Assembly: GCA_000513075.1 (NCBI GenBank)
Contig: AZYC01000005.1
Span: forward strand, 8,111-40,991
Length of the DNA: 32,881 nucleotides
From: an alpha proteobacterium SCGC AAA288-G21
GTDB taxonomy: Bacteria; Pseudomonadota; Alphaproteobacteria; Pelagibacterales; Pelagibacteraceae
Reading direction: 5' to 3'
Shown: positions 27,938 through 32,881 of the stretch, piece after piece
Layout of the letters: every line of letters begins with the position of its first letter
Numbering within the stretch: the first letter of the stretch is position 1
Made by a program: the position numbers and the translations under genes
The notes under the pieces: model-generated
Told to the model about the DNA's origin: nothing
Seen by the model: only the letters and a program-made list of their open reading frames with translations
Database searches by the model: none

Positions 27938-29068
27938 ATGAATAAGAAATTTATAAATTCCTTAGGAATCGCAAAGTCAAAAAAGGACACAAAAGTTGTT
28001 GTAGCAATGTCAGGAGGCGTTGATTCTTCAACAGTAGCAGGGTTAATGAAAAAAGAAGGCTATAAAGTAATTGGAGTTACTTTAAAGTTATATGATGATG
28101 TAAAGACTTCGGTAAAATCAAGACAGTGTTGTGCAGGTCAAGATATAATGGATGCAAAAAGAGTTGCAAATCAACTAAAAATTGATCACAAAATCCTTTA
28201 TTATCAAAAGAAATTTAAAAAATATGTAATAGATAATTTCGTTGAAAGCTACATGGCTGGAGAAACGCCTATTCCATGTGTACAATGCAATCAAACTGTT
28301 AAGTTTAGAGATCTCTATGAATATTCGAAAGAATTAGGGGCAGACGCATTAATAACAGGCCATTATGTAAAGAGTACACATAAAAATGGAATTTCAGAGA
28401 TGTATCGAGCAAAAGACCAAGAAAGAGATCAAAGTTATTTTTTATTCAACACAAATAAGGATCAATTGAATTTTTTAAGATTTCCACTAGGAAAATTTAC
28501 AAAAAAAGAAACAAGGGAAATTGCAAAAAAACTAAAGTTAAATGTAGCTGATAAACCTGATAGTCAAGATATTTGTTTTGTACCAAATGGTGACTATGCT
28601 TCGGTAATCAAAAGATTTAAACCTGAGTCTTTCAAGAAGGGGAATATAAAAGATCTAAATAATAATATTCTTGGAACCCACGAAGGTATAATCAATTTTA
28701 CTATTGGTCAAAGAAAGGGAATTGGGATAGCAGATAAGGAGGCGCTGTACGTTATAAAAATTAATTCAAACAATAATGAAATAGTAGTTGGACCAAAATC
28801 TGCTCTTGCAGTAGACAAAATTAAGTTAAGAAATTTAAATCAACTTTGCAATAATATAGAAGATTGTAATTCTAATTTATTTGTAAAAGTTAGATCAACC
28901 GGTAAATTATTAAAAGCTAAAGTCAAAGTTAATGGCAGTAACGCTGAAGTTAAATTAAAAAATAAAGAAATAGGCATATCTCCTGGACAAGCATGTGTTT
29001 TTTATTCTAAAAATAAAATTGGGGATAAAGTTCTGGGTGGTGGCTGGATATATAGTAATTATCTGTGA
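27938..29068 (+). CDS. mnmA: tRNA-specific 2-thiouridylase MnmA
   Basis: '[23 protein letters not shown]', '[11 protein letters not shown]', 'TGHYVK', '[15 protein letters not shown]', 'GQRKGIGI'. Confidence 0.96.
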
Positions 29069-29103
29069 AATTAATACACAGTATTCACACAACTATAAAT
29101 GGA

Positions 29104-29340
29104 TAATAATAAACAACTACAAAGTGATGGAAAAACAAAAAGAAAGATGATTTAATGAAACTAATTAAGAGGCAACTCTTAACTGGCCAGTTGAGGAAAA
29201 ACCGAGAGGTTCAAGCTCAGCGGGCAGAAAGTCTCGAACAGTAGAACTAAACATTCGAGGCGACTGGTGCGAAGGTAGTTCTCAACAGCGTACCAAACTG
29301 AAGATTCAGTGGCGAAAGCTACTGAGTCTTTTGGTTTTTT
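29104..29340 (+). ncRNA. candidate structured small RNA with intrinsic terminator (family not recognised)
   Basis: Non-coding, GC-richer than surroundings; hairpins TTAAGAG-GCAA-CTCTTAA, GTTGAG..AACC-GAGA-GGTT..CTCAGC, GTCTCGAA..TTCGAGGC, GGTGCG..CGTACC; loop-loop complement AGAACTA/TAGTTCT; terminator hairpin plus T-tract. 5' end is estimated from a TATAAA box. Confidence 0.72.
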
Positions 29341-29341
29341 T
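29303..29341 (+). terminator. Rho-independent terminator of the structured RNA
   Basis: GATTCAGTGGC-GAAA-GCTACTGAGTC (11 bp with G-U pairs) followed by TTTTGGTTTTTTT. Confidence 0.85.
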
Positions 29342-29400
29342 AAGGCTCACTTTAAATTAATCATGATGACTTTCGAAAAGTGTAAGAAAAGCAAGAGCTT

Positions 29401-32672: not shown

Positions 32673-32881
32673 ATGAAAAAAATACTTATAATGGGTTTAC
32701 CAGGCTCTGGTAAGACAACTTTGGCTTCAAAATTAGTACCTTTGCTAAATGCAAAAAGGCTTAATAACGATGAAGTAAGAAAAGCTGCAAATGATTGGGA
32801 TTTTTCTGAGGAAGCAAGAACAAGACAAGCAAAACGTATGGCTGATTTTGGTCCAACTACTATTTCATTATTGTTTGAATT
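32673..32881 (+). CDS. P-loop kinase, adenylylsulfate-kinase-like, truncated by window end
   Basis: MKKILIMGLPGSGKTTLASKLVPLLNAKRLNNDEVRKAANDWDFSEEARTRQAKRMADFGPT... Walker A GLPGSGKTT. Confidence 0.75.
   Translation, partial: MKKILIMGLPGSGKTTLASKLVPLLNAKRLNNDEVRKAANDWDFSEEARTRQAKRMADFGPTTISLLFE

Follow-up and report, generated by a model that had tools for sequence, protein, structure and literature searches.

The stretch of DNA analysed here (the window: 32,881 nt of a contig from the alphaproteobacterium SCGC AAA288-G21, Pelagibacteraceae) encodes on its forward strand the tRNA 2-thiouridylase MnmA (27938–29068; Pfam PF03054/PF20259/PF20258) and, downstream of and separate from this gene, a structured RNA. 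The latter, at 29158–29296 (+), matches the Rfam family IMES-2 (RF02035) with 133.7 bits and an E-value of 1.2e-34 (cmscan), against a gathering score of 54.7 bits; the copy spans the whole model (positions 1–141) and is the sole above-threshold match in the window when scanned against all of Rfam. An earlier note on this DNA had described the RNA as unrecognised, which the full-length and very strong match to RF02035 contradicts; it had also proposed an Rfam scan in which a strong match to a known family would speak against its reading, and such a match is what was found. The note could not match the RNA by eye to tmRNA, RNase P, SRP or 6S RNA, and this is borne out, there being no Rfam or ARAGORN match to any of these at the locus. 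Sequence analysis makes it very probable that a SAR11 bacterium here carries IMES-2 as a stand-alone non-coding RNA gene, with a real loop–loop kiss. IMES-2 is already catalogued in Rfam and its function is unexplained; no paper in the literature searched discusses it or reports a function. Transcripts of the IMES RNAs, described in Nature in 2009, are reportedly highly abundant in sea water.

Architecture of the RNA and its upstream region

The four consensus hairpins and the conserved junction GCAGAAAG are present in the window copy, as seen in the model alignment and in the pair counts; these, and the marine SAR11 host, it has in common with other IMES-2 RNAs, from which it differs by a rare "type B" 3′ half. 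P1 (29165–29182, +) is the hairpin TTAAGAG-GCAA-CTCTTAA with a GCAA tetraloop; P2 (29183–29227, +) is a long hairpin with an internal loop and a GAGA tetraloop; P3 (29231–29261, +) and P4 (29266–29294, +) carry in their loops the two kissing strands, AGAACTA (29243–29249) and TAGTTCT (29276–29282), respectively. An intrinsic terminator (29300–29341, +) follows, made of a hairpin (29300–29331) with a 14-pair stem and the T tract TGGTTTTTTT; it is the only terminator-like hairpin on both strands of the scanned region, where shuffles give 0.2. Most of this had been recognised beforehand: P1, the GAGA-capped stem, the two hairpins and both loop strands were recovered within one base of where the earlier note had placed them, as was its terminator after the second hairpin, while the nested stem it drew at 29190–29221 does exist but was cut too short, P2 reaching further through an outer CTG-GG/GGGCAG stem. 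The folding energy of the RNA is −46.3 kcal/mol, compared to −30.6 ± 3.6 in shuffles (z −4.4, 0/200), and this test, together with the compensatory changes described below, confirms that a genuine structured non-coding RNA is encoded here.

Just 5′ of the RNA, homologues share a conserved block, TATGATttAAT, which in the window reads GATGATTTAAT (29146–29156, +; TATGATTTAAT in relatives) and resembles a −10 element; it lies 17 nt after a conserved AGTGAT (29123–29128). The TATAAA box previously suggested near position 29092 sits at 29094–29099 and is a less likely −10 than this conserved block. A conserved −35-like block, CAACTACAAAGTGAT (29114–29128, +), is seen only 5′ of IMES-2; in most copies the block CAACtAnnnAGTGAT(a) is located at −47 to −30 from the model start, 16–17 nt before TATGATttAAT. 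Further upstream, approximately 70–85 nt 5′ of the RNA, a TACAC...TTCACA repeat (29074–29089, +; TTATCCACA-like in relatives) is conserved in position among homologues and may be a regulator site. The region 29074–29128, and the same place in relatives, holds a conserved upstream block, a TTATCCACA-like repeat plus CAACtAnnnAGTGAT with a non-canonical −35, which is apparently gene-specific and for which a dedicated regulator is possible. A promoter shared with other stable RNAs was considered and rejected, the CAAYNANNNAGTGATA block being absent or rare elsewhere; of its matches away from IMES-2, the three that were read fall within what looks like coding sequence, and no known RNA is close to any of five. 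The block appears to occur elsewhere only by chance. A link to the replication origin, considered because TTATCCACA resembles a DnaA box, was likewise dropped, as there is a single site only; by GC skew in two single-contig genomes, IMES-2 is not consistently at an origin. From the promoter-like block, the terminator and the conservation, IMES-2 would be expected to be expressed.

With regard to its way of working only, IMES-2 may be compared to 6S RNA (RF00013), which is also a single-copy, stand-alone, compact structured bacterial RNA; unlike 6S RNA, IMES-2 does not form a long rod with a central bubble. RF00013 has no match in the window and none in 20 SAR11 genomes, whereas controls including Caulobacter do match; 6S RNA in the SAR11 genomes scanned would be either lost or too divergent for this model.

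The kissing loops of P3 and P4

For two loops of 15 and 17 nt, an exact 7-nt complement would arise by chance with a probability of about 0.6% ((9 × 11)/4^7). The loop–loop kiss put forward in the earlier note, which had also called for a covariation check on homologues, is backed by compensatory changes in one alignment (A1) of 74 distinct IMES-2 copies, from which all counts of structure and kiss derive: for the consensus structure including the kiss, 91.8% of cells are paired and 479 are doubly changed, compared to 135.6 in shuffles, and the support is lost once partners are shifted by one to three columns. The four inner pairs of the kiss are Watson–Crick in 74/74 copies. Two of them (columns 95–130 and 96–129) are invariant CG and UA; the other two (columns 93–132 and 94–131), also paired in all 74, show 14 and 21 double changes, respectively, and occur as six complementary types, CG/CG, CA/UG, UA/UA, UG/CA, UU/AA and AA/UU, the last being that of the window copy. 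On a tree built without the kiss columns, the type changed about nine times by Fitch parsimony, always to another complementary type. When the loop 2 strands were dealt randomly among the copies, a mean of 46.9 of 74 remained paired, with a maximum of 54 in 2000 shuffles, versus the 74 observed. The seventh pair, a terminal A–U, is not conserved. Comparison of homologues thereby shows a predicted kiss of 6–7 bp to be conserved through compensatory changes. The kiss is absent from the structure line of cmscan, which cannot print pseudoknots, and Rfam or the source paper may already note it.

The covariation would fit a kiss within one molecule and one between two molecules alike; the strands of loop 1 and loop 2 would pair equally well in both arrangements. 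It is conceivable, albeit rather doubtful, that the strands drive formation of homodimers, loop 1 of one molecule contacting loop 2 of the other, instead of an intramolecular fold. Loop 1 in the commonest copies (UAGCGCUA) is indeed palindromic, and covarying loop contacts in other bacterial RNAs were found by cryo-EM to be intermolecular: GOLLD, ROOL and OLE are oligomeric RNAs held by intermolecular kissing loops (PMC12286853). These resemble IMES-2 in their covarying loop–loop contacts and in being bacterial RNAs of unexplained function (PMC12286853), but they are much larger, are known homo-oligomers, and no sequence relation to them is indicated by the Rfam scan. Self-pairing of loop 1, moreover, is not conserved, the window's UAGAACUA being non-palindromic, while loop 1 pairs with loop 2 in 74/74 copies; and with a linker of 4–7 nt joining P3 to P4, an intramolecular kiss is plausible.

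Distribution and chromosomal sites

IMES-2 occurs, once per genome, in 78 of 197 relatives and in 200 of 397 genomes of the order; the 14 control genomes have no copy. A pattern made from the 5′ half alone retrieved 119 stretches from GTDB, and among the matches listed (80 of the 119) all are titled Pelagibacteraceae, Pelagibacterales or Candidatus Pelagibacter. Some near-complete SAR11 genomes do not contain IMES-2, and hence it is not a universal housekeeping RNA; a broader covariance model (R1) detected no divergent copies above noise in the genomes lacking it. Carriage by phages was considered and rejected, as no match was found in 50,697 phage records; a single 19-nt match in IMG/VR was discarded, as it falls in a tail-sheath-like gene, has no Rfam match and is expected by chance.

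The gene occupies four different chromosomal sites in different genera (labelled arbitrarily g1–g14). In nine genera its neighbours are mnmA and a convergent membrane-protein gene. In g4 it is flanked on one side by a tyrosine integrase with a small ORF and on the other by ogt; a SelO-like gene and RmuC-like genes enclose it in g7, as do genes for an SNase-type nuclease and an SRAP-like protein in g9. The SelO, RmuC and SRAP names come from reading of the proteins rather than from a domain search. The integrase beside IMES-2 in g4 comprises 306–317 aa (loci L002–L004, L010, L011, L013, L016, L054 and L060). Empty sites also exist: in near-complete g4 genomes without IMES-2 (G007, G087, G104) the small ORF directly adjoins ogt, and in G007 the convergent gene follows directly 3′ of mnmA with no IMES-2 between. 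Three further genomes without IMES-2 (G002, G006 and G051, of g1, g3 and g5) lack mnmA as well, and for this reason the absence there is probably an assembly gap.

The position directly 3′ of mnmA in nine genera could lead one to regard the RNA as a 3′-UTR or cis element of mnmA, or else of the convergent membrane-protein gene. This is highly improbable and already largely refuted, since the neighbours in three other genera are unrelated and mnmA stands elsewhere without IMES-2 in those of their genomes examined. The differing neighbours across genera show an independent, stand-alone gene.

An apparently exchangeable 3′ half and a possible mode of action

The nearest relative of the window by mnmA is locus L052 (92% amino-acid identity). 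The IMES-2 copies of the two are 96% identical in alignment columns 1–75 and 48% in the rest: the loci are homologous through mnmA, the promoter block, P1 and P2 up to GGGCAGAAAG, after which P3, P4 and terminator are unrelated, and homology resumes at the end of the convergent gene. The window thus carries, between two homologous flanks, a "type B" 3′ cassette (29231–29398, +) consisting of P3, P4, the kiss and the terminator, with the signature GAAGGTAGnnC...CAACAGCG. Type B 3′ halves occur in single members of other genera, L062 (g5), L064 and L065 (g3) and L067 (g10), each joined to a 5′ half typical of its genus, and in 4 of 118 GTDB copies picked on the 5′ half only; all B copies tested exceed the Rfam threshold and retain the kiss. 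When a type A and a type B copy from one genus are paired, mean identity is 0.91 for the 5′ half but 0.50 for the 3′ half; the corresponding values are 0.91 and 0.87 for A/A pairs of the same genus, and 0.90 and 0.72 for B/B pairs drawn from different genera. A tree of the 3′ half places the B copies together, irrespective of genus, alongside g11 and g14 (support 0.89), whereas in the 5′ half, where 75 positions give weak resolution, they scatter.

By sequence comparison, the 3′ domain and terminator exist in at least two lineages across several genera, of which the window copy carries the rarer one, joined to a 5′ half that is otherwise typical of its genus. P3 and P4 plus the terminator appear to behave as an exchangeable cassette, which is apparently undescribed, and an alternative kissing half seems to have been exchanged between bacterial lineages. 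Both kissing strands lie inside the cassette and therefore remain matched when it is exchanged whole, for which homologous or illegitimate recombination would be enough. The g4 integrase and the replacement of the 3′ half had also raised the idea that IMES-2 is the attachment site of an integrating element, which was rejected; in 16 stretches followed downstream for up to 20 kb, neither an integrase nor a second copy of the 3′ half was found.

The window genome is fragmentary (139 contigs, 66% complete). A 41-nt segment of mnmA (28763–28803) recurs as an inverted copy, 98% identical, at 32841–32881, which is the end of both window and contig; this piece is likely a chimera of single-cell amplification or assembly. 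Such fragmentation, and the chimeric piece at the contig end, could favour the view that the A/B difference is an assembly chimera as well; the difference could also reflect very fast divergence in place. Either is unlikely: B 3′ halves are more similar across genera (0.72) than to type A of their own genus (0.50), type B is present in several independent assemblies, and both flanks of the window copy match its genus. With native sequence on either side of it, and type B present in other genomes, the exchange does not look like an artefact of this kind.

Taking the exchange as the preferred reading, a mode of action may be sketched. IMES-2 would act in trans as a compact, protein-binding RNA; that protein binding is its main mode of action we infer only tentatively. 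The near-invariant 5′ domain (P1 and P2) and the GCAGAAAG junction would serve as a shared platform. The two kissed hairpins would make up a rigid element for recognition, which can be exchanged whole since it contains both kissing partners. It is more speculative still that the 3′ kissing domain and terminator are an exchangeable specificity module, of which two or more old alleles would have passed from one SAR11 genus to another, into the same chromosomal site and with the 5′ domain left unchanged. Another reading is an antisense regulatory small RNA, whose exposed loops would pair with mRNAs and for which the complementarity between loops would be an off-state. It has in its favour that the gene has a promoter of its own and that the terminator closes with a T tract, like those of Hfq-type sRNAs; we consider it improbable, as IMES-2 has no long conserved unpaired stretch and the variable bases of the kiss always change together, something that no fixed mRNA target would call for.

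SAR11 bacteria rank among the ocean's most abundant cells, and IMES-2 is, to our knowledge, one of their few large structured RNAs. The kiss, backed by covariation, offers a contact that can be mutated directly, and the exchange of A and B 3′ domains, together with sister genomes that either have or lack the gene at one and the same site, provides a natural comparison for the search for a partner. If the 3′ half is indeed a specificity module, the partner it recognises would be expected to vary as well, and could be, for instance, a protein, a phage or a target allele.
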